64,000 nt of DNA, taken from positions 992,001 through 1,056,000 of the forward strand of contig NZ_CP130322.1 in the NCBI RefSeq assembly GCF_033025475.1. Direction: 5' to 3'. Position 1 is the stretch's first letter, and every line of letters starts with the position of its first letter. Under the pieces are notes generated by a model. The model had not been told where the DNA came from, did no database searches, and worked only from the letters and a program-made list of their open reading frames with translations. This stretch comes from Sphingomonas sp. C3-2. Lineage in GTDB: Bacteria; Pseudomonadota; Alphaproteobacteria; Sphingomonadales; Sphingomonadaceae. The position numbers and the translations under genes are program-made. Shown here in pieces: positions 41,632 to 60,591 of the stretch.

Positions 41632-42168
41632 TTACGGCGTCGCGTCGATATCGAATTCGCCGGCATTCTGCGCGGTCAGGGTACCCGTGAACTTGCACGC
41701 GCCGACCGTCTGATTGACGAACTGCACCGCGTTCTTAGCCGGATCGTTGTGCTTGTACGCACCGCTGATCGAGCCCTGGCACTTGATCAGACCGCCAATC
41801 GCGGTTGCATCAATGTTCGAAATCGTAACGGTGGTGCCATCGGTTGAAATGGTCGGCGTGCCGTGAAGCGTTGCCATCCCGCAGGCCGCCGAACCGCTCA
41901 TGGTGAAACCCGTCAGCGTGATCGAGTGACCATGCGAAGCATCGGTGGAAAGCGGATGCGCAAAGCTGGTGTGGCCATCGGGATTGGCTTCGGTAACGTC
42001 ATAGGTTGCCGTCACGGTGCAAGGCGTCGTGATGGTCCCGATCGTCGTGTTCATCACGCCCGAAAGCACCATGCCAGTGCCGGCCTTGCGAATGGTGACG
42101 GCATTCGCCGCAGTACTCATCCCGGCCAGAACCATTGCAGCCGAACAAAGAATAGCCAATTTCTTCAT
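41632..42168 (-). CDS. small secreted protein of unknown function
   Basis: A 178-residue exported protein: signal peptide KKLAILCSAAMVLAGMSTAANA, then a threonine/glycine-rich beta-type sequence with four spaced cysteines (TPCTV, AACGM, IKCQG, GACKF) that could form two disulfides. I do not recognise a family. ATG 42168 follows AAGGAGACGGAT; upstream in-frame codons lie in the spacer and the neighbouring gene. It lies downstream of a TonB receptor on the same strand but has its own terminator and probably its own promoter. A pilus- or surface-type protein is possible but unproven. Confidence 0.82.
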   Translation of the reverse strand: MKKLAILCSAAMVLAGMSTAANAVTIRKAGTGMVLSGVMNTTIGTITTPCTVTATYDVTEANPDGHTSFAHPLSTDASHGHSITLTGFTMSGSAACGMATLHGTPTISTDGTTVTISNIDATAIGGLIKCQGSISGAYKHNDPAKNAVQFVNQTVGACKFTGTLTAQNAGEFDIDATP

Positions 42169-42218
42169 ATCCGTCTCCTTCATTGTTTTTGAACGAAGTT
42201 TACGCGAAATACTGGCAC

Positions 42219-42241
42219 CGAGGGGGGAGCCCCCCCCCTCG
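42219..42241 (-). terminator. G/C-run hairpin after TonB receptor gene
   Basis: CGAGGGGGG pairs with CCCCCCTCG across a five-base loop, eight bases beyond the receptor's stop. No T-tract follows on the minus strand. Confidence 0.55.
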
Positions 42242-42248
42242 ATTCTTG

Positions 42249-45242
<2,994 letters not shown>

Positions 45243-45775
45243 CTTAATCCCCTCCGCTCCTCTGCCAGTCGCCTCGGCGGACTGGCTATCGCCGCAATTT
45301 TTTGCGGTCTTACCTACAGGGACGCACCAGACCGAAAATCCCTCATATTTTTTTGGAAATTTTTTTCGAATCTATTTCGGTAACTGCCCCGATCAGCCTT
45401 TTCATATGATTATGGCTTTGTTCTAAATTGAAAAACTGGATTTGCTCCAATTTGGAAATAAGCGCCCCCTGCATGCATGTCAGTGAGGCGCCTGCCACCG
45501 GAGAACTGCGCAGCATCGAGCCGCTCTGACGTGGGGAAAGGACCGGAAAAACGACCAGAAAACGCTATCGCGCGGCGTTCAAATCAGGTGCCGTCGTCCA
45601 GCATGACATCCATCACATGATGGCCGGATCTTGAAGACACAGACAATCACGGCAAGGGCTGCGAGCTTGTTGGGCGCGGACGAAACAGCCGGCGCGGGCG
45701 CAACCAAATTTCACCACAAAACTCTGCGCCGCCATGGCATTGTTGCGTCAGAAAATTCTAAAATTTGAAATAGAT
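45243..45775. other. 533-base intergenic region upstream of the TonB receptor
   Basis: No gene is supported. The part nearest the receptor (45345-45400) is AT-rich and contains the TetR-type dyad; a short CCATCA-CA-TGATGG repeat lies at 45611-45624. The left-running receptor promoter must be here. The remainder shows nothing I can name. Confidence 0.55.
45365..45380. promoter_or_regulatory. TTCGAA-type dyad, copy 1 (TonB receptor)
   Basis: TTCGAATCTATTTCGG, 123 bases upstream of the receptor start. It matches copies 2 (54167-54185) and 3 (54751-54769) at nearly every position; consensus TTCGAATYTATTTCGRAA, in effect TTCGAA-N5-TTCGAA. Confidence 0.65.
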
Positions 45776-48328
45776 CTAAAATCTTTTCTGAATACTGAAA
45801 CGGATCAACCGACCTACAGGGTCTATTTCATCCCGGCCATATCCATATGGAACGCTTCCATCGTTCAATTGAACTCGACGAAATTCATTAAAAATATTCT
45901 GAACATCAAAGGATATTCTCAAATTTTTAAAGACTGAATCTTCATTTCCACTCCCAATCAACCTGTGCGGTTCAAAAAATGTTGAAAAATTGAACTTCAA
46001 AGAAGATTTGAAGTGAAACACCTCATCAGCACCGTCCAAGCGAGCGGGCCCAACCCAATTTCCGCTCAGCGTAGCACCCAATCCTTTTTTTCCAGCCGTC
46101 AGTTGCAACGAAGCATGGTGGCGGGGCTGCCCCGCACCGTTCAGTTGATCAAGCACGGCTATGCCATTTCGGATCAATAATTCATTCTTGAGTTGCCACA
46201 CATGATTCAATGACATGTTCAATCGCAATGGATTTTGCGGCACCGCTGCCGCTGGCTGGCGCTCAGAAAGGAGGCGCACGACAAGGGATGTCGTCAACGC
46301 CTCCAAAGAATTCCGCGCGATATTGATGGGACGGGCGTCAACCATGATCAGGCGACCGGCATCGTCTCGTGTGAAGCGCTCTGGAAACACGGCCTCTACC
46401 GAGGGTGCCGATGTTGGCAGCGCCCCACTCCCTCGCCTTCCTATCACGCGCTGATATGAGACGTTGAGCGTGGGTCCCTCCTTGCTCAGCGGATAGAATG
46501 TACCATTCAGCGTAAAGGCGTGACGAGTTCCTCGGCGCAGCGCAGGATTGCCCCCGGTAATCCAAACCGGCTCAGCCACCTCCTGCCTGATGAAATCATA
46601 TACCCGATTGATTGTTTCGACACGCGGCCCTTCCAACAGAACAACCGCCGGCACATCCTCGGTGTAAGATATTGAGCCGCGCAACTGCACAGACGGCCAA
46701 GGGGTCCAATTCACCCTGCCATCGAACGCCCTCTGCACCTCCCTCTCACCCCCAATGTCCAAGCTGCCTAGAACATCAATCGAGAGATCTCCCAACACTG
46801 CCCTCTCATCGGCGATTCTACTGGAAATAGGGATAGTGAAAGATTGCTGAACCTTGAATCGCATATTGCGCGCATGGCTATTTTCAAATGAACTATGATT
46901 ACTTTTAATTAATTTATTTGATGAGAAATTTCTATTTGCGGAAGCCGTAAAATTAGAAAAAACAGATCCACTTTTCATTTCAAAAATTGAATTAGATACA
47001 TTAATCTGAGCATCCCAATTTTCGTATATAGAATAAATTTCATCAGTAAGGAATATTTCCGTTGGAAGACGGCCATAAGGATTTTTCAGAACATCCCCGG
47101 ATGCAACGATCTTCTGAAATTCCGTAATATCGATTCCACGATCCAGCGAGGAACGAGACGATCCACGCATGTAATTTGCGAGAAGGTTCAATTGCCAGGA
47201 ACCGATCGCTCCACTTAAGGAAGTCGAAACACCCCAGGATCTGGACTGAAGACGGCTGCGCAACGGACGGTCTCCGTCATAACTGCGCACAAGCACCACA
47301 TCCTGGTGAAAAGGTGACCAGAGGCTTGTCGCAGGAAGAACCGCAGAGGCACGCGGCAATCCCAGCAACCTTTCAGTGTGGTTTGTTCCGCCATTGACAC
47401 TGATCGAGCCACTGAACGCCCCTATGGGGCGCATGAGATTGGCGCTGAGTGACAGCGTCTCATTACCGGGCAAAAGCGTCTCATAGGCATGTGGGTCACC
47501 CAGTTGAACGACACCAGCAGTTTGCACGAAATCGCTCAACTCAGGGGGATCAGATTCAGCACCGCGCGGCACCCCCGCGATCGTCACAGCCTTGCCCGCC
47601 AACGCACTTAATTGCGGATCGATTTCACCCAGTCCAAGGCCTTCAATATGGCCGGCCAAGTCAACCGCCGCGACCGGTCGTGGAATATGTCTCTGATTTT
47701 TCAACAAGGCGCTTTCCCGTGAAAGCTGGGCATTGACGCCCCAGTTCGTCTGCCCCGAAATTGCTGTATATCCAGCGGATAGTCGCTGACCATCCCGCCC
47801 CCCCGCCGTTGCGAACGACGCCCCGGCATCGATGCTTAAACTGCTGAATTTACGCTTCAACACTAGGTTGACCACCCGCCGCCCCGGCGGATAGCCATAA
47901 CGCGCCGCCGCATCAGGAGGCAGAATGGCAAGACGCGACAGCGCCTCGGGCGGGAAGCCGGAAACACCCACCGCCCCGCCGCGCTTTCCATTAACAAGCA
48001 GCTCAAGCTCTTCGCCTGATCCGTCGATGGATGGCTTCAATGATTGAAGGAGCTCCGCAATGCTGCTCGCGCCGTGAATGGCGATATCTTCTTCATCAAG
48101 TTCTGTTTCAGGCGCCACATTCGCGTCGCCATAGCGAGCCGTAACAACAATTTCGGTATCATCGGTCACAGTCGCAGCATCGGGCGCTGCAGCATCGCGC
48201 TCAGCCGCCCGATCATTACGCTGCGCAAACGCCTCTTCAACGCGCGCAAAATCCAAAATAATCAGAAGCAGGACCACGCGCACGCAGTGCGTCCAAAAGG
48301 TGCTTCGCATCATAGCGCCGCGCAACAT
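45776..48328 (-). CDS. TonB-dependent receptor-like outer-membrane protein, divergent
   Basis: An 850-residue protein: signal peptide-like start (VVLLLIILDFARVEEAFAQ), a plug-like domain (DTEIVVTARYGDANVAPETEL, ASSIAELLQSLKPSIDGSG, PPDAAARYGYPPGRRVVNLVLKRKF) and a barrel ending GRLIRFSIQKRF. The plug lacks the usual LRGPQGTLYGRN segment and has the short VNGKRGGAVGVSGFPPEAL version seen in a divergent sphingomonad receptor group. The middle part (about 46.9-47.2 kb) is strongly AT-rich compared with its flanks. No good ribosome binding site precedes 48328; ATG codons at 48313 and 48310 are alternatives. The substrate is unknown. Confidence 0.85.
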   Translation of the reverse strand: MLRGAMMRSTFWTHCVRVVLLLIILDFARVEEAFAQRNDRAAERDAAAPDAATVTDDTEIVVTARYGDANVAPETELDEEDIAIHGASSIAELLQSLKPSIDGSGEELELLVNGKRGGAVGVSGFPPEALSRLAILPPDAAARYGYPPGRRVVNLVLKRKFSSLSIDAGASFATAGGRDGQRLSAGYTAISGQTNWGVNAQLSRESALLKNQRHIPRPVAAVDLAGHIEGLGLGEIDPQLSALAGKAVTIAGVPRGAESDPPELSDFVQTAGVVQLGDPHAYETLLPGNETLSLSANLMRPIGAFSGSISVNGGTNHTERLLGLPRASAVLPATSLWSPFHQDVVLVRSYDGDRPLRSRLQSRSWGVSTSLSGAIGSWQLNLLANYMRGSSRSSLDRGIDITEFQKIVASGDVLKNPYGRLPTEIFLTDEIYSIYENWDAQINVSNSIFEMKSGSVFSNFTASANRNFSSNKLIKSNHSSFENSHARNMRFKVQQSFTIPISSRIADERAVLGDLSIDVLGSLDIGGEREVQRAFDGRVNWTPWPSVQLRGSISYTEDVPAVVLLEGPRVETINRVYDFIRQEVAEPVWITGGNPALRRGTRHAFTLNGTFYPLSKEGPTLNVSYQRVIGRRGSGALPTSAPSVEAVFPERFTRDDAGRLIMVDARPINIARNSLEALTTSLVVRLLSERQPAAAVPQNPLRLNMSLNHVWQLKNELLIRNGIAVLDQLNGAGQPRHHASLQLTAGKKGLGATLSGNWVGPARLDGADEVFHFKSSLKFNFSTFFEPHRLIGSGNEDSVFKNLRISFDVQNIFNEFRRVQLNDGSVPYGYGRDEIDPVGRLIRFSIQKRF

Positions 48329-48534
48329 CTTGCACAGAAAGATCTAAATGGAATTTTTCTGGTTACCAGATGAACAGCGAAAGGCACTTTGGGGAGGAGG
48401 CGGCATATTGCGCCGCAATACTCTCGGGCATCGCTGACACTCAGCACACCACCCTCCCCAAATTCTCATTTCAAAAACATACTCATAATTTCAACAACAG
48501 AAAAATTATTTGATCCAATTTGAATGCGTTATTC

Positions 48535-49524
48535 TTATTCCACATAATATTGGCTGAACCAGCGGCGCCACAGCAAGATCGGGCCGTCGCCGTCGCAGAG
48601 CAGCGGTTGCGGACGATATTTCTTGTTGTTCCAGACGATGAGATCGACCGATTCAAAGCCCGCCGAATCCTCGTCTTCAGTTTCGCCGATCGAATGCTCG
48701 TACAGCTTGTGCGCAATCTTGCGCTCAACCGAGCCTTCCTCGTAATTGCGATAGGTGAACTGCATCATGGTGCGCGTATTTTCGCGGTCGATGGGCAGCG
48801 AGCTCGAGAACATCGTCATGGTGACGCCGTTCTGGCTGTGCCGCACGACAGCGATACCGGGACCATGGTTTTCGCCGACGATATATCCGTTGCCGATGTC
48901 GAAGTGAAAGACATTGCCTTCGACGCGCGCGGTGCCCGGCGGGATGATCGGCGCACCGTGCAGATAATGAAGATGCGCAAAGTCGACCGCATTTTCGCCG
49001 ATTTCCTGTATCGCGGTTCCGATGTCCCAGGCGCCGCGCGGCAGCGTGACATAATCGTCGCTTTCAAATTCGGGCACTTCGGGCAGCTCAAACATCGGCT
49101 CGGCGCCCTCAGGGTGATACCAGGCGTAGATCGCGCCATAACGCTCAATGATCGGCAGCGAGCGGAGAATGGGCTTCTTGCGCGCGATCGGCGGCATCAC
49201 CTTTGCGTACGGGATCTTGGTGCACCAGCCTTGGGTGTCATATTCCCAGTGGTGGAACGGGCAACGAATGCTGTCGCCGACCACCACCCCGCCCTCGCCG
49301 AGATGCGCGCCCAGATGCGGGCAGAAGGGATCCGAGATGCCAACCTTGCCGCTTTCCCCCCGGAACATCACCCATTGCTGGTCGAACGCCTGAATCTGCC
49401 GGATTTCACCCGGCGCGATGCTCGCGGACTCATCGATCATGAACCATCCATAGGGGATGGGAAACGGACAGCGCTCCAGCTCTTTCGAAGTCTGGATATG
49501 TTCGATCGGCGATAATTCGTTCAT
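48535..49524 (-). CDS. KshA-like Rieske non-heme iron oxygenase
   Basis: A 329-residue terminal oxygenase. The Rieske cluster ligands are C68, H70, C88 and H91 (CPH ... CPFHH); the mononuclear iron site is N178-x2-D181-x2-H184-x4-H189 in ENAVDFAHLHYLHG. The C-terminal stretch VDLIVWNNKKYRPQPLL then DGPI and RRWFSQYYVE closely recalls 3-ketosteroid 9alpha-hydroxylase KshA and the cholesterol desaturase DAF-36/Neverland group. It would hydroxylate or desaturate a sterol-like or other polycyclic substrate, with electrons from a separate reductase. ATG 49524 overlaps the P450 stop by four bases, so the two oxygenases are made together. No KshB-type reductase gene is in the window. Confidence 0.93.
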   Translation of the reverse strand: MNELSPIEHIQTSKELERCPFPIPYGWFMIDESASIAPGEIRQIQAFDQQWVMFRGESGKVGISDPFCPHLGAHLGEGGVVVGDSIRCPFHHWEYDTQGWCTKIPYAKVMPPIARKKPILRSLPIIERYGAIYAWYHPEGAEPMFELPEVPEFESDDYVTLPRGAWDIGTAIQEIGENAVDFAHLHYLHGAPIIPPGTARVEGNVFHFDIGNGYIVGENHGPGIAVVRHSQNGVTMTMFSSSLPIDRENTRTMMQFTYRNYEEGSVERKIAHKLYEHSIGETEDEDSAGFESVDLIVWNNKKYRPQPLLCDGDGPILLWRRWFSQYYVE

Positions 49525-50912
49525 TTTCCCTCTCCTCGATATGGCGGATGCCGCTCGGCCACGACGCGCACGGAGAAGCTCAGTGCCGGTCCGGGTGTGG
49601 GCGCGGTCTTGGTTTTGAGAACATAATCGGGCGATGGCAGCGCCAGTTCGAACCGATGGAAAAGCTGTGCCATCGCAATCGCCATCTGGATTTCGGCCAG
49701 CCCCTGGCCAAGGCAGCTATGCGGCCCCCGCCCGAACGGCGAATACGCCCCTTTCTGCAGATGCTCGCCGCGCGGCCGCTGATAGCGATCGATATCGTAC
49801 CGCTCCGGCTCGGGGTAGAATTCCTCCATGAAGTGCGGGACGCTGGTGCCCACATAGATCATCTCATTTTCCGGAATGATGTGCCCGGCAAATTCGAAGT
49901 CGCGCGTGGCTGTGCGCATTTGCGCAACCGCGATCGGCCAGAGCCGCATCGCTTCCATGATCGCGCCATTCACCGCCGTCATGTTGCGGACAGCTGCCTC
50001 ATCGATGACCTTCCCTGAGAAGAGTTCATCAGCTTCGGCCTGAACGCGCTTGAGCACGTCAGGATGTTTGAGGATTCCGTAAATGCAGGCCGCGAGCGTG
50101 TTGGCGACGGTATCAAGCCCGGCCACATAGGGACCGGTTACCGACAGGATGAGATTCTGATCGGGCATCAGATCCGAGCCATCACGATTGGCCTGGATGA
50201 TATCGGTGATAAGGTTCTTGGGCGCGGTGCCATCATCAAGGCGCGTCCGGAAATCCGCGATCATGGCTTCGCCAAGTTCGCGAATGCGCTGATGCGCCCG
50301 GCTGTAGCGCGGGTCTTTCAGCATGATCCGCGGGCGCTGCTTGGTCACCAGCACGTTGAGGATGGTAAGGATCGCGAAACGGATATCTTTGACATATTCG
50401 AGCGGCGCCTGCCCGGTCAGGAGCATGCCGAGCTGCTCGACCACCAGATATTGCATCGCCTCGAGCACGGGGATTTTTGCGCCCGGCGTCCACCGGCGGC
50501 CAAGGGCGCGGTCAGTCGCCTCGACGAGATCCTCATAATGCCCTTCGACCGCCTCGCGCGAGAAACCGCTGCGCAACAGCGTGCGCAACCGCATATGCCG
50601 CTCGCCATCAAGGCCGGTCAGGGTTTCGGTCGCGCCATATTCCTCGATGAGGCCGTGCCAGAATTCCTTCGAACGCAGGCAATCGCGTCCTTCGCGCGTC
50701 GTCATGAAGGTGGCCGCCTCCGGCCCCGCAATCACGATGCTTTCGCGTCCAAAGACATGAATACGGTAAACCGGACCATGCGCACGGTAGGAGCGCAGAA
50801 AGAATGCGGCCGGATCCTTGGCCATATCGAGCGTGTTGCCGAGCAAAGGGAGCCCGGGCACCAGCGGGATGCTCGTTTCGGCCAGTCTCGGTTTTTCCAG
50901 AACAGCGGCCAT
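49521..50912 (-). CDS. cytochrome P450
   Basis: A 463-residue soluble P450. The haem cysteine is C400 in FGRGPHSCLGQGLAEIQ, the K-helix ExxR is EAMR in EAMRLWPIA, and the I-helix oxygen-binding groove is AGLDTVAN. It lacks an N-terminal membrane anchor, like other bacterial P450s that take electrons from a [2Fe-2S] ferredoxin; two such ferredoxins lie at 20.6 and 55.7 kb. ATG 50912 is preferred because AAGGAG lies 11 bases upstream, against an unsupported longer reading to 51008. Operon order is TetR, SDR, aldehyde dehydrogenase, P450, Rieske. The subfamily cannot be assigned by eye. Confidence 0.95.
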   Translation of the reverse strand: MAAVLEKPRLAETSIPLVPGLPLLGNTLDMAKDPAAFFLRSYRAHGPVYRIHVFGRESIVIAGPEAATFMTTREGRDCLRSKEFWHGLIEEYGATETLTGLDGERHMRLRTLLRSGFSREAVEGHYEDLVEATDRALGRRWTPGAKIPVLEAMQYLVVEQLGMLLTGQAPLEYVKDIRFAILTILNVLVTKQRPRIMLKDPRYSRAHQRIRELGEAMIADFRTRLDDGTAPKNLITDIIQANRDGSDLMPDQNLILSVTGPYVAGLDTVANTLAACIYGILKHPDVLKRVQAEADELFSGKVIDEAAVRNMTAVNGAIMEAMRLWPIAVAQMRTATRDFEFAGHIIPENEMIYVGTSVPHFMEEFYPEPERYDIDRYQRPRGEHLQKGAYSPFGRGPHSCLGQGLAEIQMAIAMAQLFHRFELALPSPDYVLKTKTAPTPGPALSFSVRVVAERHPPYRGEGK

Positions 50913-51077
50913 ATCGACTATCTCCTTTTGACGATCCGGCCGGCACGCCCCGCACAGCCTCTTGCCGCAAGAACCGGGGACACAGCTAGCCTTTGTCCGG
51001 ACGGTCATGCCGTCCGGACGGGTTTCAAAATTGCACTTTGGTAGTCATCGTCGCGCCTGAGGGCGCGACAGTTTCGT

Positions 51078-52472
51078 TCAGGGCGTCAGCATCTGATCCA
51101 CAAACATTGCTGCCTCCTTGGGAAAGGGTGGATAGAACATCGGCGCGCTGTCCTTGGCATCCAGCGCATCCTCAACCACGCCGCGCGGATTGGAGAATTC
51201 CACGAAACCGGCACGGCCGCCGAGGCGACCGATACCGCTATGATTGGCGCCACCAAAGGGTAGCGTCGCGATATTGGCCTGAACCACCGCGTTGTTCACG
51301 GCGCTCGTGCCTGCGCGCGTATGATCGATATACCAGTCGGCCGAAGCCCGGTCGGCGGTGAAGATGTAGATGCCGAGCGGTTTCGGGCGCCGCGCGATTT
51401 CCGCAACGGCGTTCTCGCGCGTGTCGAAGCCCTGGACAACGAGCACAGGCCCGAACACCTCTTCGTCATAGATCGCCATGTCCGACGTCACATCGGTCAG
51501 GATCGTCGGCGAGACAAAGCGGGCGTCCACATCCACCTCGCCGCCCATCACCAACGTCGCGCCCTTTTCGAGCGCATCCTCGATAAGGCTCTGGATACGC
51601 CGGGTATGATGCACGCTGATGATCCGTGACAGATCCTGCGACACGGTGAAACCTTCGCCGGCGGGATCGTAGAATTCCCGCACCTTTTGCTGAAGCGCGT
51701 CGAGGAACGCGTCCTTGACGCTGTTGCTGACCAGCACATAGTCGGGCGCCAGGCAGACCTGTCCCGCAATGAGGTGGCGGCCAAAGGCGAGCTTGGCCGC
51801 CGCATCGGCGATATCGGCGTCCGCTTCGACGATCGCGGGGTTCTTGCCGCCCATTTCCAGCGTTACGCCGGCAAAGTTGCGCGCAGCCGCCTCCATGACA
51901 AGCCGCCCGATGCGATTATTGCCGACATAACAGATATGATCGAAGGGCAGCGCAAGCAGGCCCTGTGCGACCTCCGGACCACCAGTGACCACGGCAACAT
52001 CCTCGGTCAGCCCTGCCCGTTCGATCACCTTCACCACCATTTCGGCCGAATGAGGCGCGATTTCGGATGGCTTCAGCACAACAGCATTGCCGGCGGCGAT
52101 CATGCTGACGACCGGCGACAGGCTGATGAGCACGGGCGCATTCCAGGTCGCCAGATGCAGGACGACCCCCTTCGGCTCATAATGGACATAGGCCTGGCGC
52201 CCCATCATGCTGGGCAGCGCCTCGACATGCTCGCGCTCCATCCATCCCGCCAGGCGGTCACAGACAAAGCCGATTTCTTCCTTGAGCGGAAGGAGCATCA
52301 TCCGGCCGTCCATCGCCACTTCGCGCATGCTGGCTTCGCCAATTTCCGCGCGCAGATCATAGACCGCCTGATAGAGCCGCCGAAGCTTTTCGATCCGTTC
52401 GGCCGCAGTGGACCGGGCAATCTGCGGCGCCCGCGCGCGCAACTGGCCGTATATTGTCGCTAGATCAGTCAT
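51078..52472 (-). CDS. aldehyde dehydrogenase
   Basis: A 464-residue NAD(P)-dependent aldehyde dehydrogenase. Conserved sites are the Asn in TWNAPVLISL, the general-base Glu in VTLEMGGKNPAIV, the nucleophilic Cys in AGQVCLAPDYV, and FGGANHSGIGRLGGRAG near the C-terminus. The length and motifs are closest to the coniferyl-aldehyde/fatty-aldehyde group. I chose the ATG at 52472; a GTG at 52487 that overlaps the SDR stop is an alternative and would add five residues. It would oxidise an aldehyde formed after P450 or SDR action to the acid. Confidence 0.92.
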   Translation of the reverse strand: MTDLATIYGQLRARAPQIARSTAAERIEKLRRLYQAVYDLRAEIGEASMREVAMDGRMMLLPLKEEIGFVCDRLAGWMEREHVEALPSMMGRQAYVHYEPKGVVLHLATWNAPVLISLSPVVSMIAAGNAVVLKPSEIAPHSAEMVVKVIERAGLTEDVAVVTGGPEVAQGLLALPFDHICYVGNNRIGRLVMEAAARNFAGVTLEMGGKNPAIVEADADIADAAAKLAFGRHLIAGQVCLAPDYVLVSNSVKDAFLDALQQKVREFYDPAGEGFTVSQDLSRIISVHHTRRIQSLIEDALEKGATLVMGGEVDVDARFVSPTILTDVTSDMAIYDEEVFGPVLVVQGFDTRENAVAEIARRPKPLGIYIFTADRASADWYIDHTRAGTSAVNNAVVQANIATLPFGGANHSGIGRLGGRAGFVEFSNPRGVVEDALDAKDSAPMFYPPFPKEAAMFVDQMLTP

Positions 52473-52483
52473 GGGCCTGAACC

Positions 52484-53362
52484 TCACATCATGTCGGGAA
52501 TGGCGGGCTGGCGGCGTTCGAGCATATCCTCATAGCGCTTGCGCACAGCAGCCTTGGTCTGATCGGTCAGCGGCAGGATGTAGAACTCGTCACGGAGAAG
52601 CGACTGGAACACCTCCTCGGCGAAATCGGCCGGATTGGTGATGTCGACTTCCCGGCCGAGGAACATCTTCATGACAGCCTGGAACGAGGCGATGTCGTTG
52701 ATGCCCGTGCCCTCGCGCACGAGCGGATCGTCATAATCGGACTGAAGATTGCGGTGCGACCCGAAGAGCCCGGTATCGACCACATGCGGTCCCGGGAAAA
52801 GAAGCGCCGCCTTGATCGGCGATTGCGCCATCTGAAGCTGATAAGCGAGAACTTCCCAAAGCGCGATCAGTGCCGCCTTCGAGGACGAATAAGCCGGCGA
52901 GCTTGGCGGAAACACAATGCCAGCACCAGACGAGGTTGCCGCGATCAGCGCTTCGCCACCTTGCGCGATCAGGCGCGGCATAAACGTCAGCACCCCATTG
53001 AGCGGACCGAAATAATTGACGTCCATCGCCCAGCGAAATGCCTTTTCCGGGCTTTCCCAGATGGTCGGCCCGCCGCCGCCGCCAACGCCGGCATTGTTGA
53101 AGACCATATGGACGGCGCCCCACTCCGCGAATGCCCGGTCGGCCAGCGCCTCAACTTCTTCGCGACGCACGACGTCGGTCTTTTGACCGATCGCCTTGGC
53201 ACCCGTTGCACGCAGGCCCTCGACAGCAGCGTCAAGCGCTTCCTGCTCGATATCCGCGAGCACCACATTGGCACCTTCGCGCGCCAGACGGTGTGCAAGG
53301 GCAAGTCCAACCCCACTCGCGCCCCCCGTGATTACGGCGACCTTATTCCGGAACTCCTTCAT
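52484..53362 (-). CDS. short-chain dehydrogenase/reductase
   Basis: A 292-residue classical SDR. The cofactor loop is TGGASGVGLALAHRLA with the NAD-type Asp in VLADIE; catalytic residues are the Ser in ATSSGAG and the Tyr/Lys in YSSSKAAL. The C-terminal part is longer than the SDR norm of about 250 residues and ends QPAIPDMM. Its start lies 20 bases inside the upstream TetR gene, so the regulator and enzymes are co-translated. It probably interconverts a hydroxyl and keto group of the pathway substrate. Confidence 0.92.
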   Translation of the reverse strand: MKEFRNKVAVITGGASGVGLALAHRLAREGANVVLADIEQEALDAAVEGLRATGAKAIGQKTDVVRREEVEALADRAFAEWGAVHMVFNNAGVGGGGGPTIWESPEKAFRWAMDVNYFGPLNGVLTFMPRLIAQGGEALIAATSSGAGIVFPPSSPAYSSSKAALIALWEVLAYQLQMAQSPIKAALLFPGPHVVDTGLFGSHRNLQSDYDDPLVREGTGINDIASFQAVMKMFLGREVDITNPADFAEEVFQSLLRDEFYILPLTDQTKAAVRKRYEDMLERRQPAIPDMM

Positions 53363-54155
53363 CTTCTTCGCCCTCTCCAGCTAAGGCGACCGCCTTTCGC
53401 GCCGCCTGTTTTTTACGGGTTTTCTTCACTTCCACGGGGCTGGTCGGACGCGGTGCCGTCCCATTGTCCCAGGGCATCACCTCCCCACGTCGGCGCCCAA
53501 TGGATTCCACGATCGGCAACAACATTTCCCCAACCAGATCGACCGGCTTGGCATAGGCCTTCTGGCCTTTGCGCATCAGCGGCAGCTGATCGGGTTCGAA
53601 ATGCGCAAATGCCTGACGCAGCATCCGTGCACTCGATCCACTACGCGCCTCGGCCGCACGATCACGGCAAATCGCAATCGCCGCCCCCAAGGTGATGGCC
53701 CCAATGGTACGCCAAACGCCCACCGCCTCGTCGATCGCAAACCCCCGCGCGACAAGAACCTCGACAAAACGCTCGGTCACGGCGAGCTCGCGCTCAATAC
53801 CGCCACCCCCGTCCATGACCTGAAGAATTAGGTGCGGCTCCGATGCCAGCGCATCCTTCAGGCTGGTCGCGTATTCGATCACATATTCCGACCAGTGCTG
53901 TTCGCAATCGCCAGGCAGATCCACCGTTTCCAGCTGCCGCTCAATTGCGAGCCTGAGCAACTCGTCCCGATTTTTCACATATTGGTACAGCGTCGCAATT
54001 CCGACACCCAGATGTTCGGCCACCCGCTTCATGCTGAAGCGGTCGAGCCCCAGCGTGACAGCCGCATCAATGACGGCATCCCGCTCGAGACTTCTGGGAC
54101 GCCCCACCCCGTTCGGCGTTTTCGACAACCAATTCACATTTCGTTCCCGCACCAT
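53343..54155 (-). CDS. TetR/AcrR-family regulator, first gene of the P450 operon
   Basis: A 270-residue TetR protein with an N-terminal HTH at about residues 25-62 (SMKRVAEHLGVGIATLYQYVKNRDE), a helical ligand-binding domain, and an unusual basic/acidic C-terminal tail (VKKTRKKQAARKAVALAGEGEEDEG). It heads the operon that continues with SDR, aldehyde dehydrogenase, P450 and Rieske genes. The dyad 54167-54185 lies 12 bases upstream of its start, so autoregulation is likely. No Shine-Dalgarno sequence is clear before 54155, so the mRNA may be nearly leaderless. Confidence 0.92.
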   Translation of the reverse strand: MVRERNVNWLSKTPNGVGRPRSLERDAVIDAAVTLGLDRFSMKRVAEHLGVGIATLYQYVKNRDELLRLAIERQLETVDLPGDCEQHWSEYVIEYATSLKDALASEPHLILQVMDGGGGIERELAVTERFVEVLVARGFAIDEAVGVWRTIGAITLGAAIAICRDRAAEARSGSSARMLRQAFAHFEPDQLPLMRKGQKAYAKPVDLVGEMLLPIVESIGRRRGEVMPWDNGTAPRPTSPVEVKKTRKKQAARKAVALAGEGEEDEGVPE

Positions 54156-54166
54156 GACACACCATT

Positions 54167-54185
54167 TACGAATTTATTTCGGAAA
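54167..54185. promoter_or_regulatory. TTCGAA-type dyad, copy 2 (TetR/P450 operon)
   Basis: TACGAATTTATTTCGGAAA, immediately upstream of the TetR start. It is the least symmetric of the three copies but aligns base for base with the other two through the core GAATNTATTTCG. Confidence 0.65.
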
Positions 54186-54421
54186 TGTGCGTAAGGCGTT
54201 TCCCTGCTGCTGTCGAGCCGATATGGGCCCGCGCCGGACAGATAGCCTGATGCGGAGCCAATTTCGGTTCTGATTTCAGCAGCCCAGTTCACATGCCTCC
54301 CCAGCTAGCTCACCAAAACATCGTGCCGTTAAAATGCCCTGCTGCGTATTCCAGAGGCACGCCGGCGCCCAACCGACATGCGCTCCATTCCTCGCTCATC
54401 CCTTACGCTTACAATTCCTGA
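54186..54421. other. intergenic region, TetR / small gene
   Basis: These 236 bases hold the upstream part of the TetR operon promoter and the 3' side of the next minus-strand gene. I see no gene, terminator stem or other repeat. Confidence 0.45.
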
Positions 54422-54724
54422 TTAGCTGCGGCGCGTGCCAGTGAGCGGCGACGTGCCGAACATGCCCGCCTTGACGCCGCCACTAAGGGTATCACCCGAG
54501 ACGGTCGCGGTTGCTTCGAGCGTCATCTTCATCGGCTGGGTCAGTTGCATCTTCCAGCTGACCGTATCGCCCACGATCTTGCCCTCGAGCAGTTCCATGG
54601 TGCCCATCTGGCCTTCGCTGGTGCCGGTGAAGCTGTCACCGTTCGACTGGAAATGGATGATCGAGGTCTGCTCGCCAACCGGCGTCTTGGTCATGCATTC
54701 CCAGCTTCCGTCAATTGCTGCCAC
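54422..54724 (-). CDS. small conserved-looking protein of unknown function
   Basis: A 100-residue protein, beta-rich, without a signal peptide, starting at GTG 54724 with GGAGAG eight bases upstream. The sequence pattern (GSWECMTKTPVGEQTSIIH, GDSFTGTSEGQMG, GTMELLEGKIVGDTVSWKMQ, SGDTLSGGVKAGMFG) looks like a small calycin- or DUF-type antiparallel barrel that might bind a hydrophobic ligand. I do not recognise the family. The dyad 54751-54769 lies 27 bases upstream, the same as at the P450 operon and the 45.2 kb receptor, so it is probably part of that regulon. Confidence 0.75.
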   Translation of the reverse strand: MAAIDGSWECMTKTPVGEQTSIIHFQSNGDSFTGTSEGQMGTMELLEGKIVGDTVSWKMQLTQPMKMTLEATATVSGDTLSGGVKAGMFGTSPLTGTRRS

Positions 54725-54750
54725 TGCCGCTCTCCTTTTTGATACTCTTT

Positions 54751-54769
54751 TTCGAATCTATTTCGAAAA
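54751..54769. promoter_or_regulatory. TTCGAA-type dyad, copy 3 (small gene 54.7 kb)
   Basis: TTCGAATCTATTTCGAAAA, the most symmetric copy: TTCGAA, five bases, TTCGAA. It lies between the start of the small gene and any plausible -35 box, as expected of a repressor site. Confidence 0.68.
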
Positions 54770-54889
54770 TTGATATCGAATGTTTGTCGGCTTATTCCAC
54801 CGCTGTCAATAGCGCGCACGCAAAGAAGCGCGACGGGAATGCCCCGCTGCGTGAAAATTACTGATAGTTGAAAAGCTTATTATGCGGCG

Positions 54890-55513
54890 TCAGCGCTTCT
54901 CGGGAGCGGTGTAGGCGATACCGGATGTCAGCATTTCGGTCAGTTGCGCTGCGATATTTTCGAAAGCTATCCCTGCGCCGGATGCCAGCGCATTCCAGGC
55001 CAGATGCTCCATCCCACCGAAGAGAAAGTCTCGCAGCAAGCGAACATCGAGATCGGGCCGAACATCGCCCGCAGCGATGCCATCGCGGACAACGGCGCTC
55101 AACAACTCAGTATAGCGCCGCATAAGCCCATGTATCGGCGAGCCACGATAGTCGCTCGCATCGCGCTGTTCCCGGATGAATAGGGCGCACATTTCCGGAT
55201 CCTGCGCATAAACCTGCAAATTGGTCCGAATAATGGCCTCAAGCTTGGCGCGGAAACCCTCCGCTTCGTCGACCGCGCTTTCCGCCTGCGCGATCAGCCC
55301 TTCCAGAAAATCTTCCAGCACCGCAGCGAGCATCGCACGCTTATCGGAAAAATAGCGATAGATGAGCCCGTCAGAGACTTGCGCGGTTTTTGCGATCTCG
55401 CTGATCGACGCGGCCGCATAACCCTTGGCCTGGAAAATCACCCGCGCGGCCTCAAGGAGATTTTGATGGCGATCACGTCGGCGGGTTTCGGTCAGTCGCG
55501 GCAAGGGGAACAA
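54890..55513 (-). CDS. TetR/AcrR-family transcriptional regulator
   Basis: A 207-residue TetR regulator: HTH at about residues 20-60 (ARVIFQAKGYAAASISEIAK and VSDGLIYRYFSDKRAML), then a C-terminal ligand domain (FLFGGMEHLAWNALASGAG), the form seen in FadR-like TetR regulators of acyl-CoA metabolism. It is divergent from the ferredoxin/enoyl-CoA hydratase/Kor genes, so it most likely controls them. The start ATG 55513 gives the standard family N-terminus. Confidence 0.92.
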   Translation of the reverse strand: MFPLPRLTETRRRDRHQNLLEAARVIFQAKGYAAASISEIAKTAQVSDGLIYRYFSDKRAMLAAVLEDFLEGLIAQAESAVDEAEGFRAKLEAIIRTNLQVYAQDPEMCALFIREQRDASDYRGSPIHGLMRRYTELLSAVVRDGIAAGDVRPDLDVRLLRDFLFGGMEHLAWNALASGAGIAFENIAAQLTEMLTSGIAYTAPEKR

Positions 55514-55668
55514 CTCCTCATTTCAGGCTTCACAGCCCGGGGCGAGATCCATATAGTGAATCCCGCCCAGTTTGCATAATCCTATCCTCCTCGCTCATTT
55601 CTGCGCCCCGCCCACCTGCAAGCACATGCTTGAAGCCATGCTCATGCGAGCGACAGGGAATGAGTCAG

Positions 55669-55986
55669 ATGACACGAATTAATGTGATTGATCGCAACGG
55701 CAGCCCCCACACACTGGAAAGCAATGGGCACGCCACCCTTATGGAAGTGCTCCGTGATGAGGGACTCGGAACCGAAGGCACCTGCGGCGGAATCTGCGCG
55801 TGCGGCACGTGTCATGTCTATATTCGGAACACAACCACGCTGCCCGCTGCGGACGAGGATGAACAAGACATGCTCGCAGCGCTTTCCGATGTGGTTGCGG
55901 TGACCGATGCCTCCCGCCTGGCGTGCCAGATCCGGTTCGATACGCTCGGCGACAGTCTCGACGTCGAAGTCGCCCCCCAGCTTTGA
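55669..55986 (+). CDS. adrenodoxin-type [2Fe-2S] ferredoxin
   Basis: A 105-residue ferredoxin with ligands C39, C45, C48 and C86 (C-x5-C-x2-C ... C), related to the one at 20.6 kb but clearly distinct. The acidic helix is AADEDEQDMLA. ATG 55669 is preferred with AGGGA upstream; ATG 55660 is an alternative three codons earlier. It lies 22 bases before the enoyl-CoA hydratase gene and 4.8 kb from the P450, and is the nearer candidate electron donor for the P450 or Rieske enzyme. Confidence 0.9.
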   Translation: MTRINVIDRNGSPHTLESNGHATLMEVLRDEGLGTEGTCGGICACGTCHVYIRNTTTLPAADEDEQDMLAALSDVVAVTDASRLACQIRFDTLGDSLDVEVAPQL

Positions 55987-57047: not shown

Positions 57048-57288
57048 ATGACTGTTCGATCTTCCCCCACCTGCCACGGCACGGTGGAAAAGCATTCGAC
57101 CACGGACTGAGGCGGTCGCCGCCACGGCCGACATAGCCCGACCCAGGTTCGCGATCCGAGAGCGCCCGACCTCGTTTCGCAAATGAACATGCGGTCCGGT
57201 GGCCATGTCGCGACCGCCTTTCTTTTGCCCCTGCTGCCCCTTCCTCTGCCCATGCCCCTTGCCACCATGACCAATGGAGCAGGAAATC

Positions 57289-59169
57289 ATGGCGACAGCC
57301 GCTAGAGTCAGCGAATATCCTCAGGTCGAACCACCTGAAGAAAATCCATGCCTGATCGTACGCTTTGCAGGCGACAGCGGTGATGGGATGCAACTGACCG
57401 GGGGACAGTTCACCCTGTCCACCGCGCTTGCCGGCAATGACCTTGCCACCTTCCCGGATTTTCCAGCCGAGATACGCGCGCCGCAGGGATCGACCTTCGG
57501 GGTTTCGGCATTCCAGATCAATTTCGGGTCGACGCGCGTCGATACGGCCGGGGACCAGCCCGACATCCTCGTGGCGATGAACCCGGCGGCGCTGCGCACC
57601 AATATCGCGGAACTGAAACCCGGCGGCCTCATCATCGCGGATATGGGCGAATTCACGACGCGCAACCTGACGCGGGCCGGCTATACGGCCTCCCCACTCG
57701 ACGACGGCAGCCTTGCCGCGTGGCAGGTGCAGACGATCGACATCAGTCAGTTGACACGCGAAGCGGTCAAGCCCTGGGGCTTGAGCAACAAGGATGCCTT
57801 GCGCTGCAAGAATATGTGGACGCTTGGTCTTTGCCTGTGGATGTTCGATCGCCCCCGTGACCCCGTCATCGATCGCTTGAAACGCAAATTCGGCGCGGAT
57901 TCCAAACTTGGCGGAGCCAATATCGCCGCGATCAATGCGGGTCACGCCTTTGGCGAGACGGCCGAACTGAGTGCAGGGTTGCGGCAGCACCACCTGCCCC
58001 CCGCGCCGAGCGCGCCGGGGATCTACCGAACCATCACCGGCGCCGAGGCGATATCGCTTGGCCTTGTTGCCGGGGCGCAGATGATCGATCGCCCCTTGTT
58101 CTTTGGCGGCTATCCGATCACGCCGGCTTCGGCGATCCTCCACAATCTCGCCCGGCTGCAGGATTTCGACGTCACCACATTCCAGGCCGAAGACGAGATT
58201 GCAGCGATTTGCGCGGCGCTTGGGGCATCCTTTGCCGGCAATCTGGGTGTCACCTCCTCATCGGGCCCCGGAATCGCGCTCAAGACCGAGGCACTGGGCC
58301 TTGCGGTGATGACCGAGCTTCCGCTCGTCATCATCAATTCGCAGCGTGGCGGGCCGTCGACGGGGCTGCCAACCAAGACCGAACAGTCCGATCTCTATCA
58401 GGCCGTCTATGGCCGCAATGGCGATACACCGCTCCCGGTCCTTGCCGTGCGCTCGCCCGGCGACGCCTTTGCGGTCGCGATCGAGGCCTGTCGTATCGCC
58501 GTGCAGTTCATGACGCCGGTGATGCTCCTGACCGATGGCTATATCGCCAATGCGTCCGAGCCCTGGCGGATTCCGGATACAGACGCCCTGCAACCGCACC
58601 CCACCCCGATTGCTGAAGCGCCCGGGCCAGACGAAAGCATGGTCCTGCCCTATGCGCGTAATGCGCTCAACGTACGACCCTGGATCACGCCGGGCATGCC
58701 GGGCCTTGCGCACCGGATCGGCGGGATCGAGAAGCAAAATGGAACGGGCAATCTCGACTATAGCCCGGCAAACCATCAGGCGATGACCGACATTCGCCGC
58801 GCCAAGGTCAACGCGGTCGCATGCACAATACCCGATCAGGAGATCGATCAGGGAGCAGCGGGCGGACGGCTGGCATTGGTCGGATGGGGATCAAGCTATG
58901 GCCCCATCTCGCAGGCCGTGCGCCGACAGCGCGCGCTGGGGCGTGACGTCAACCATATCCATATCCGCCACCTCTGGCCAATGCCCCAAAATCTGGGCGC
59001 ACTGCTCAAGAGCTATGACCGGATCATCGTTCCCGAAATGAACACCGGCCAGTTGAAGACGCTGCTCCGGGATCAGTTCCTTGTCGACGCGGCACCGCTC
59101 AACAAGGTCTGCGGGCAACCCTTCACGATCCGGGAGATCGAGGCGGCTATCGTCGAAGCCCATGGCTGA
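57289..59169 (+). CDS. korA: 2-oxoacid:ferredoxin oxidoreductase, fused gamma-alpha subunit
   Basis: A 626-residue KorA: an N-terminal gamma-type domain (VRFAGDSGDGMQLTGGQFT, residues about 25-210) followed by the alpha subunit with FFGGYPITPASAIL, the QAEDEIAAICAALGASFAGN segment and SSGPGIALKTEALGLAV. It pairs with KorB to oxidise a 2-oxoacid such as 2-oxoglutarate to the acyl-CoA, reducing ferredoxin, without lipoate. The start at 57289 has GGAGCAGGAA just before it; an ATG at 57274 is an alternative. KorB follows after 45 bases and FdxA after that. Confidence 0.95.
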   Translation: MATAARVSEYPQVEPPEENPCLIVRFAGDSGDGMQLTGGQFTLSTALAGNDLATFPDFPAEIRAPQGSTFGVSAFQINFGSTRVDTAGDQPDILVAMNPAALRTNIAELKPGGLIIADMGEFTTRNLTRAGYTASPLDDGSLAAWQVQTIDISQLTREAVKPWGLSNKDALRCKNMWTLGLCLWMFDRPRDPVIDRLKRKFGADSKLGGANIAAINAGHAFGETAELSAGLRQHHLPPAPSAPGIYRTITGAEAISLGLVAGAQMIDRPLFFGGYPITPASAILHNLARLQDFDVTTFQAEDEIAAICAALGASFAGNLGVTSSSGPGIALKTEALGLAVMTELPLVIINSQRGGPSTGLPTKTEQSDLYQAVYGRNGDTPLPVLAVRSPGDAFAVAIEACRIAVQFMTPVMLLTDGYIANASEPWRIPDTDALQPHPTPIAEAPGPDESMVLPYARNALNVRPWITPGMPGLAHRIGGIEKQNGTGNLDYSPANHQAMTDIRRAKVNAVACTIPDQEIDQGAAGGRLALVGWGSSYGPISQAVRRQRALGRDVNHIHIRHLWPMPQNLGALLKSYDRIIVPEMNTGQLKTLLRDQFLVDAAPLNKVCGQPFTIREIEAAIVEAHG

Positions 59170-59214
59170 GCCGCGCGTCGCGACCTGTTCCCCTTATCGG
59201 ATGACAGCAAGACC

Positions 59215-60222
59215 ATGACCGAGAAAAAAACTTATGATGCAGCGGATTATGCCAGCGATCAGGAAGTGCGCTGGTGCCCCGGCTGCGGCGACTATGCCAT
59301 CCTCAAGGCCGTTCAGCGCAGTCTGGCGCAGTTGCAGGCCGATCCCGACCAGACGGTGTTCGTAAGCGGTATCGGCTGCTCGAGCCGGCTACCTTATTAT
59401 ATGTCGACCTATGGTTTCCACACGATTCACGGCCGCGCGCCGGCGGTCGCCACCGGGATCAAGCTCGCCAACCCCGCGCTCGATCTCTGGATCGTGACGG
59501 GCGATGGCGACGGGTTGTCGATCGGCGGAAACCACCTGTTTCATATCCTCAGACGCAACGTCGATTGCCAACTGCTCCTGCTCAACAACGAGATTTACGG
59601 GCTCACCAAGGGCCAATATTCGCCGACCTCGCGCGTCGGCGCGCGGACGCCCTCGACGCCCTTTGGCTCGCTGGACCGGCCCGCCAACCCATGCAGCTTC
59701 GTCCTCGGCGCAGGCGGCCGCTTCATTGCGCGATCGTTCGACACTCATAAGGGCCTGTCCGATCTGCTGGTGCGCGCGCGCCAGAGCACGGGGACATCCT
59801 TTGTCGAGATTTATCAGAACTGCATCGTCTATAACGCCGATGCCTTTGCGCCCTTCACCGACAAAGCCACTGCTGCCGAACGCCAGATTTGGCTCGAACA
59901 TGGGCACCCCATGCTCTTTGCAGACGGCAGCAAGGGGTTGAAGGCTTCCTCAAACGGCCGCGGCCTCGAAATCGTCTCGCTTGCCGACGGAAACTGGCAG
60001 GATGCGGGTGTCCTCATCCATGATGAAACCGACCGCATCCTGGCCCAGATGCTCGTCGACATGCCCTTTCCCGATTTCCCGATCGCGCTCGGGATTCTCT
60101 ACCACGATCCGGCGCCCAGCTTCGACAGCATCGCGGCGCGCAGCGCGCCTCCGCGCCGCGCCGGCACGGCCGAACTCGCGAAGCTGCTAGCCAACGCCCA
60201 AACCTGGTCGGTCAACGCCTGA
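59215..60222 (+). CDS. korB: 2-oxoacid:ferredoxin oxidoreductase, beta subunit
   Basis: A 335-residue TPP-binding subunit. Cluster and cofactor motifs are CPGCGDYAILKAVQ, GIGCSSRLPYYM, the TPP motif VTGDGDGLSIGGNHLFH and the following LLLNNEIYGLTKGQYSPTS. It completes the KorAB enzyme with the upstream gene. The gene follows korA by 45 bases and precedes the 7Fe ferredoxin by 30, so all three are probably one transcript. Confidence 0.96.
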   Translation: MTEKKTYDAADYASDQEVRWCPGCGDYAILKAVQRSLAQLQADPDQTVFVSGIGCSSRLPYYMSTYGFHTIHGRAPAVATGIKLANPALDLWIVTGDGDGLSIGGNHLFHILRRNVDCQLLLLNNEIYGLTKGQYSPTSRVGARTPSTPFGSLDRPANPCSFVLGAGGRFIARSFDTHKGLSDLLVRARQSTGTSFVEIYQNCIVYNADAFAPFTDKATAAERQIWLEHGHPMLFADGSKGLKASSNGRGLEIVSLADGNWQDAGVLIHDETDRILAQMLVDMPFPDFPIALGILYHDPAPSFDSIAARSAPPRRAGTAELAKLLANAQTWSVNA

Positions 60223-60252
60223 TCGCCCAAATCTATCTGCGGAAACAACATC

Positions 60253-60591
60253 ATGACCTATGTCGTTACGGACGCCTGCATCAAATGCAAATATATGGAC
60301 TGCGTCGAGGTTTGCCCCGTCGACTGCTTCTATGAAGGCGAGAATATGGTGGTAATCGACCCGAGCCAGTGCATCGATTGCGGCGTGTGCGAACCCGAAT
60401 GCCCCGCCTCCGCCATTCTACCTGACAGTGAACCGGGCCTAGACCAGTGGCTCGCGCTCAACGCCGCCTGGGCCGACAAATGGCCCAATGTAACGGTCAA
60501 GCGAGCGCCCGCTGATGATGCGGACAAGTTTCAGGGAGAAACGGGCAAGTTCGAGAAATATTTCTCTCCCGAGCCCGGCAAAGGCGATTGA
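60253..60591 (+). CDS. fdxA: 7Fe ferredoxin (FdxA type)
   Basis: A 112-residue ferredoxin with the FdxA pattern [17 protein letters not shown] and [12 protein letters not shown], holding one [3Fe-4S] and one [4Fe-4S] cluster, and the typical C-terminal extension ([16 protein letters not shown]). It is placed to accept electrons from KorAB. The genes to its left form one apparent transcript, and 60649-60680 carries a hairpin downstream. Confidence 0.95.

Follow-up and report, generated by a model that had tools for sequence, protein, structure and literature searches.

The window analysed here, a 64,000-nucleotide stretch of Sphingomonas sp. C3-2 (C1:992001-1056000 of a single-contig 3.53-Mb genome, G000), contains three copies of a 21-bp dyad, TTNNCGAANNNNNTTCGNNAA (Table 1). 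Copy 1 stands upstream of a TonB-dependent receptor gene, copy 2 upstream of an operon that begins with a TetR-family regulator gene (here TetR-A) and continues with genes for a short-chain dehydrogenase (SDR), an aldehyde dehydrogenase (ALDH), a cytochrome P450 and a Rieske oxygenase, and copy 3 upstream of a gene for a 100-residue protein. Our analysis makes it highly probable that the three dyads are operators of TetR-A, which would be an autoregulated repressor of both uptake and oxidation genes. The reading draws on the rarity of the sites, on their conservation together with this TetR, and on the gene content of the loci.

Occurrence of the dyad in the genome

A preliminary description of this DNA had reported three copies of a somewhat shorter motif, each upstream of a minus-strand transcription unit, the second adjoining the TetR start and a fourth not being seen. 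When the window was searched with a pattern of that type (TTCGAATYTATTTCGRAA), matches at up to 3 mismatches were found at 45365, 54167 and 54751 and nowhere else. In 100 shuffles of the window the mean was 0.08 matches, and three matches were reached in 0/100. The copies at 45365-45382, 54167-54184 and 54751-54768 carried 1, 1 and 0 mismatches, respectively, to the earlier consensus; the starts first given for them were correct, and the ends were off by 1-2 bases. The placement of each copy before a minus-strand unit, and of copy 2 directly before the TetR-A gene, was borne out as described. The whole own genome was also searched with the widened pattern TWCGAATYTATTTCGRWA at up to 3 mismatches. 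This gave 8 matches, of which the three in the window had 0 mismatches, one had 2 and four had 3, compared with 2 matches for the reversed pattern used as control. The symmetric arms of TTNNCGAANNNNNTTCGNNAA were found exactly at the three window sites and at one G+C-rich site within a long open reading frame (ORF); at up to one mismatch, 14 sites were found versus 5 for the control. Good matches are not spread across the genome, and no other place is as good by the earlier motif.

Among 298 family genomes (our own included), 18 contained a TetR match at 1e-20, at 26 places altogether, and close TetR-A orthologues were found only in G071 (74% identical) and in G139, Sphingomonas laterariae LNB2 (72%). 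The training set of a position matrix comprised only four sites, all from G071 and G139, and five simulated 3.53-Mb genomes with the dinucleotide content of the window, in which the maxima were 20.6-23.7, served as the null. With this matrix, operators 1, 2 and 3 scored 24.4, 30.9 and 29.9, respectively. Across the 178 kb of own-genome DNA that was scanned, the only further place above the simulated range was C1:153686-153706, with a score of 28.6. The earlier statement that there is no fourth copy thus holds within the window, but genome-wide it meets a strong candidate at this place.

The fourth site ends 129 bp before a gene encoding an 800-residue fused coenzyme A (CoA)-transferase of family III, and a DUF2147 gene lies 27 bp after it. 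The DUF2147 protein (C1:156 kb) is 68% and 64% identical to those of G071 and G139, respectively. In G139 the DUF2147 gene is divergent from TetR-A across the same dyad, and in G071 it is found behind a third dyad (L055:15542, 11/12 arm positions). Moreover, the CoA-transferase is 60% identical to a CoA-transferase of G011 encoded ~4 kb past a Rieske gene, and this Rieske gene has a weaker dyad no more than 90 bp before it (L122:3171, 11/12, one arm mismatch; matrix score only 18.4). There is, at the level of sequence, good evidence that the C1:153686 site marks a fourth member of the putative regulon. In the same region (C1:153686-156709, L132:3687-6710), a second CoA-transferase gene lies divergently ~0.9 kb away, and a 53% homologue of it occurs in a Rieske/TetR cluster of G133. 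A further DUF2147-like gene, 37% identical to that at C1:156 kb, was seen in the window at 1119-1526, with no dyad; by reading, it stands before an outer-membrane-type protein and an acyl-CoA-ligase-like ORF.

Other candidates were rejected. The genome match at 2 mismatches, C1:514066, lies inside an ORF, is without the outer A/T positions and has a matrix score of 13. Eleven own-genome sites outside the window had 0-1 arm mismatch, and the surroundings of eight of them were examined (all except 440889, 2330412 and 2901428). Of these eight, 153686 is the one accepted as a site. The sites at 436617 and 3166933 lie between listed ORFs, but their matrix scores (16.4 and 19.5) are under the simulated maxima; the remaining five of the eight are inside ORFs, including 2136909, which has full arms and a G+C-rich centre.

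Conservation of the dyad with the TetR gene

In the window, G071 and G139 alike, 11 bp separate the upstream dyad (counted from its 17-bp core) from the first ATG of TetR-A. When the three upstream regions were aligned, 17 of 21 columns were identical within the dyad, compared with 53 of 207 outside it. A second dyad was found in G071 and G139 upstream of a related TonB receptor ~8 kb from TetR-A. Both genomes with a close TetR-A orthologue thus retain the motif in front of this regulator and of a related receptor gene; loss of the motif from close relatives, by which the preliminary description would have been refuted, was not seen in them. Plasmid copies were also sought, with one distant TetR match (35%) as the result.

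Homologues of the receptor were surveyed at 27 loci in 20 of 397 family genomes, with 900 bp examined per locus. The dyad was present at three of them, namely that of the window and the two beside TetR-A in G071 and G139, and the best match at the other 24 was 9/12 arm positions. Dyad-bearing loci made up 3/5 in genomes with TetR-A versus 0/22 elsewhere (p 0.003). Since all three are in TetR-A genomes, the dyad appears to track this TetR and not the receptor family. In the receptor tree, the window receptor grouped with three receptors of G071 and G139 (100/100), and the branching among the four was not resolved.

The upstream regions of more distant TetR homologues were compared in the same way. 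Within 250 bp upstream, 6 of 23 further homologue loci (the three orthologues excluded) carry a dyad that matches in 11 or 12 of the 12 arm positions, and two of these six are a near-identical pair, TetR-B, of which more is said below. Such a dyad occurred in 0.34% of 1469 control windows and in none of the controls belonging to those six loci. The residue beside the YV of the presumed recognition helix was Q, G or T in all nine dyad-bearing TetRs. Among TetRs with one of these residues 9/11 have the dyad, compared with 0/15 of the others (Fisher p 1.8e-5, for a split chosen post hoc and uncorrected for kinship). Judged from these sequences, the operator type belongs to a wider TetR subfamily.

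Several observations weigh against the assignment of the dyads to TetR-A. Seventeen of the 23 further TetR homologues are without a dyad of 11 positions, including the same-clade L012 and L016; close orthologues of TetR-A were found in two relatives only, both of one genus, and none of the remaining four genomes from the genus of the window has a TetR match at 1e-40. For the receptor copy, the margin over the best simulated genome is narrow (24.4 versus 23.7), and in the three-way alignment of receptor promoters the dyad, identical in 13/20 columns, is not the stretch of highest conservation, other windows reaching up to 14/21. The nearest counterpart of the window receptor by score, a second G139 receptor (C71), is without the dyad. 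The next match of the matrix after the fourth site, L138:14460 (score 22.8), has no proper arms and lies before an unrelated ORF; it looks like a chance match and was rejected. The fourth site itself lies within a 250-codon reverse-strand ORF, which matches no Pfam family and is taken as spurious. Finally, a strict scan found no consensus sigma-70 promoter.

Promoter context and proposed mechanism

In the TetR-A promoters of the window, G071 and G139, the sequence TCGACA (putatively a -35 hexamer, Table 1) is found at -61, with a hexamer beginning with TA 17 bp on. With TCGACA in this position, the operator, located at -30 to -10, would lie over the transcription start, as for a repressor. For the CoA-transferase gene at the fourth site, the best promoter-like pair was TTTACA, 18, TATCAT, in which the second hexamer lies inside the dyad, again a repressor-like place. 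In front of the receptor gene, a second conserved element, TGCGTCCCTGTAG, is possibly a promoter or leader element. The start-to-start offset from the dyad to the TGAGG/TGCGTCCCTGT element is fixed at 36-37 bp in three genomes, and FecI and FecR genes lie beside the receptor in G139. Both observations would suit TetR-A as an activator at the receptor promoter, where a dyad upstream of the second element may stimulate a promoter downstream. We regard this as unlikely, given the position of the dyad at the TetR, CoA-transferase and small-protein genes: there it overlaps the most promoter-like hexamers (themselves weak matches) or lies after them, as would be expected of a repressor site. Moreover, the pattern TGCGTCCCTGTNG was found once in G000 and once in G071, in both only at the receptor promoter, and G139 gave no exact match, so that the TGCGTCCCTGT element as a general FecI promoter is not supported. 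A third dyad (11/12 arm positions) was seen near a FecI gene in both relatives (L056:8675 and L055:15542), which raises the possibility that in these genomes the FecI/FecR pair belonging to the receptor is under TetR control as well.

Somewhat less probable still is that the dyads are operators of another regulator, be it a second TetR, a paralogue or an unrelated factor. Operator 3 lies 120 bp from the end of a second TetR-family gene (54890-55513; PF00440, NCBIfam FadR-like below cut-off), and a TetR-A paralogue, 38% identical, exists at C1:2152635. However, no homologue of the second TetR (E up to 1e-3) was found in the dyad-bearing 20-kb loci of G071 and G139, the best upstream match at the paralogue (L032) was 8/12, and the dyad keeps its fixed distance before TetR-A in three genomes. 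Very improbable, finally, is a role of the dyads as RNA hairpins (attenuator or terminator) or as repeated DNA that no protein recognises. In its favour, two of the three copies gave better folds than most of their shuffles did (z -3.2 and -2.3). The third, however, folded no better (z 0.0); a terminator search gave nothing in 54100-54900, and its single result in 45200-45780, at 45275-45294, does not coincide with the dyad. Conservation of the dyad, moreover, follows the TetR gene.

We favour TetR-A as a repressor acting at all of these sites. A TetR-A dimer would occupy TTNNCGAANNNNNTTCGNNAA in three promoters, those of the TonB receptor gene, the small-protein gene and its own operon, and all would be off. 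An inducer, probably a hydrophobic substrate or its product, would free the repressor, and the uptake channel would then be made together with the SDR, ALDH, P450 and Rieske proteins; the fourth site would bring in the fused CoA-transferase and the DUF2147 protein. From the gene families, we infer that uptake would be followed by hydroxylation by the P450 and/or the Rieske oxygenase, and the resulting alcohol would be converted to an aldehyde, an acid and a CoA ester.

Table 1. Putative operators, promoter elements and genes of the proposed TetR-A regulon in the window
Feature	Position	Strand	Remarks
Operator copy 1 (21-bp dyad)	45363..45383	-	120 bp upstream of TonB receptor ATG
Operator copy 2 (21-bp dyad)	54165..54185	-	ends 9 bp before TetR-A ATG (11 bp from 17-bp core)
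Operator copy 3 (21-bp dyad)	54749..54769	-	24 bp upstream of GTG of 100-residue protein
Putative -35 hexamer TCGACA of TetR operon	54211..54216	-	17 bp before weak -10-like hexamer at -38
Second conserved element TGCGTCCCTGTAG	45314..45326	-	between operator 1 and receptor gene; conserved in three receptor promoters
TetR-A, TetR-family regulator	53343..54155	-	first gene of operon; PF00440 and PF02909 above cut-off
Short-chain dehydrogenase (SDR)	52484..53362	-	PF00106; start overlaps TetR-A end by 20 bp
Aldehyde dehydrogenase (ALDH)	51078..52487	-	PF00171; overlaps SDR by 4 bp
Cytochrome P450	49521..51008	-	PF00067
Rieske oxygenase, KshA-type C-terminal domain	48535..49524	-	PF00355, PF19298; overlaps P450 by 4 bp
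100-residue protein	54422..54724	-	no Pfam or NCBIfam family; family common in sphingomonads
TonB-dependent receptor	42249..45242	-	PF00593, PF07715
ORF with small, apparently exported protein (~residues 93-270)	41632..42444	-	after receptor; first part overlaps receptor gene in another frame

The overlaps listed in Table 1, together with a single 69-bp gap, argue that the genes from TetR-A to the Rieske oxygenase form one operon. TetR-A matched PF00440 in its N-terminal helix-turn-helix domain with 26.3 bits (cut-off 24) and PF02909 in its C-terminal domain with 22.1 bits (cut-off 21). The closest solved sequence to the Rieske oxygenase was KshA 4qdc; the likeness to 3-ketosteroid 9alpha-hydroxylase oxygenase (KshA) is one of sequence similarity only, with the Rieske and KshA_C domains shared. 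For the P450, the closest solved sequences were a putative P450, CYP51 and others. A KshA-like Rieske oxygenase and a P450 would be compatible with a bulky hydrophobic substrate, without naming it. Homologues of the 100-residue protein were found in 273 of 397 family genomes, and the 29 other homologue loci inspected had no dyad with 11 or more arm positions, which limits the regulon reading for this gene. In Pfam, the window receptor has no match to the N-terminal STN signalling domain of FecA-type receptors, unlike the related G139 receptor. A protein related to the small protein after the receptor also follows the receptor in G139 and G071 (31-34% identical; no Pfam family).

Other genes of the window were noted nearby. 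A 2Fe-2S ferredoxin gene (55630-55986) has no dyad of its own, and homologues of 47-50% lie near Rieske genes of G133 and G011, making the ferredoxin a likely electron donor. An 850-residue protein (45776-48328) reads as an outer-membrane protein of the TonB-receptor type, with no Pfam or NCBIfam match at 0.001. Further on, at 57274-60591, the plus strand carries genes resembling a two-subunit 2-oxoacid:ferredoxin oxidoreductase and a ferredoxin gene (by reading).

Different gene content in relatives

The arrangement of genes in the window was seen in this genome only. Among 397 family genomes, our own included, the P450 had matches at 1e-120 in 3 and the Rieske oxygenase at 1e-90 in 5. In G071 and G139, homologues of the SDR, ALDH and P450 (69-73% identical; SDR ~70%, ALDH 69-70%) were found away from TetR-A, behind TetR-B, which is 42-44% identical to TetR-A and has its own weaker dyad of the same architecture, TTCTCGAATCACATTCGGATA; the Rieske homologues lie at a third place. 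The own paralogue at C1:2152635 groups with another clade, not with TetR-B. In G139, the genes after TetR-A are, by Pfam, those of an ABC transporter, a MacB-type permease and HlyD, with FecI, FecR and an STN-bearing receptor next; by reading, the ORF order after TetR-A in G071 looks like that of G139. No close homologue of the MacB permease was found in our own genome, where the best was 30%. In the two genera, TetR-A thus heads different genes. The link between the receptor and the P450 operon is not conserved, as the receptor of G071 and G139 has the TetR-A dyad and the P450 operon there follows TetR-B. The earlier proposal that one TetR joins uptake with oxidation is supported for this genome, but the P450 operon appears to be part of the regulon in this lineage only.

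With the P450 operon behind TetR-B in the relatives and TetR-A heading an efflux operon there, either targets or regulators seem to have been exchanged. We give an even chance to the reading that here TetR-A replaced TetR-B before SDR-ALDH-P450 and lost the efflux operon, thereby uniting uptake, oxidation and CoA activation (through the 153-kb site) under one operator. The operator architecture common to TetR-A and TetR-B would make such a regulator swap easy. The alternative is the opposite direction, in which one regulon was split in the relatives.

For a TetR-type regulator, control of its own gene through a palindrome that adjoins or covers the promoter is standard (PMC9736018). The autoregulated systems TetR/tetO and PA3973, which have small regulons, are alike in this respect and in the helix-turn-helix and TetR C-terminal domains; the window differs in its putative operator sequence and in its set of receptor plus oxidation genes. 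In the edc estrogen-degradation cluster of Novosphingobium tardaugens, a P450 hydroxylase, the TonB receptor EdcT and a putative TetR occur together, and the receptor was induced 91-fold (PMC7793797). There the receptor is inside the cluster operon and the accessible part of that report describes no operator, whereas the window receptor gene forms a transcription unit apart, preceded by a dyad of its own. In Sphingobium sp. SHPJ-2, removal of the repressor PheR raises oxidation genes and TonB receptors (PMC13273656). PheR, however, is of the IclR family with a GCAACG core, and its effect on receptors comes from transcriptomes, no shared operator being reported in the portion of that source available to us; the regulator in the window is of the TetR family. 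A literature search found no publication on this TetR or operator, although one may still exist. Joint control of uptake and oxidation is therefore already known in outline; what is new here is this particular regulon, which is well supported, and the change of its targets.

Many TonB receptors of sphingomonads have an unknown substrate, and the shared operator would tie one of them to a specific oxidation pathway, offering a testable substrate class as well as a sensor. Moreover, the comparison with the two relatives, in which the same regulator has other cargo, may provide a small-scale natural example of how a regulon is rewired between TetR paralogues.

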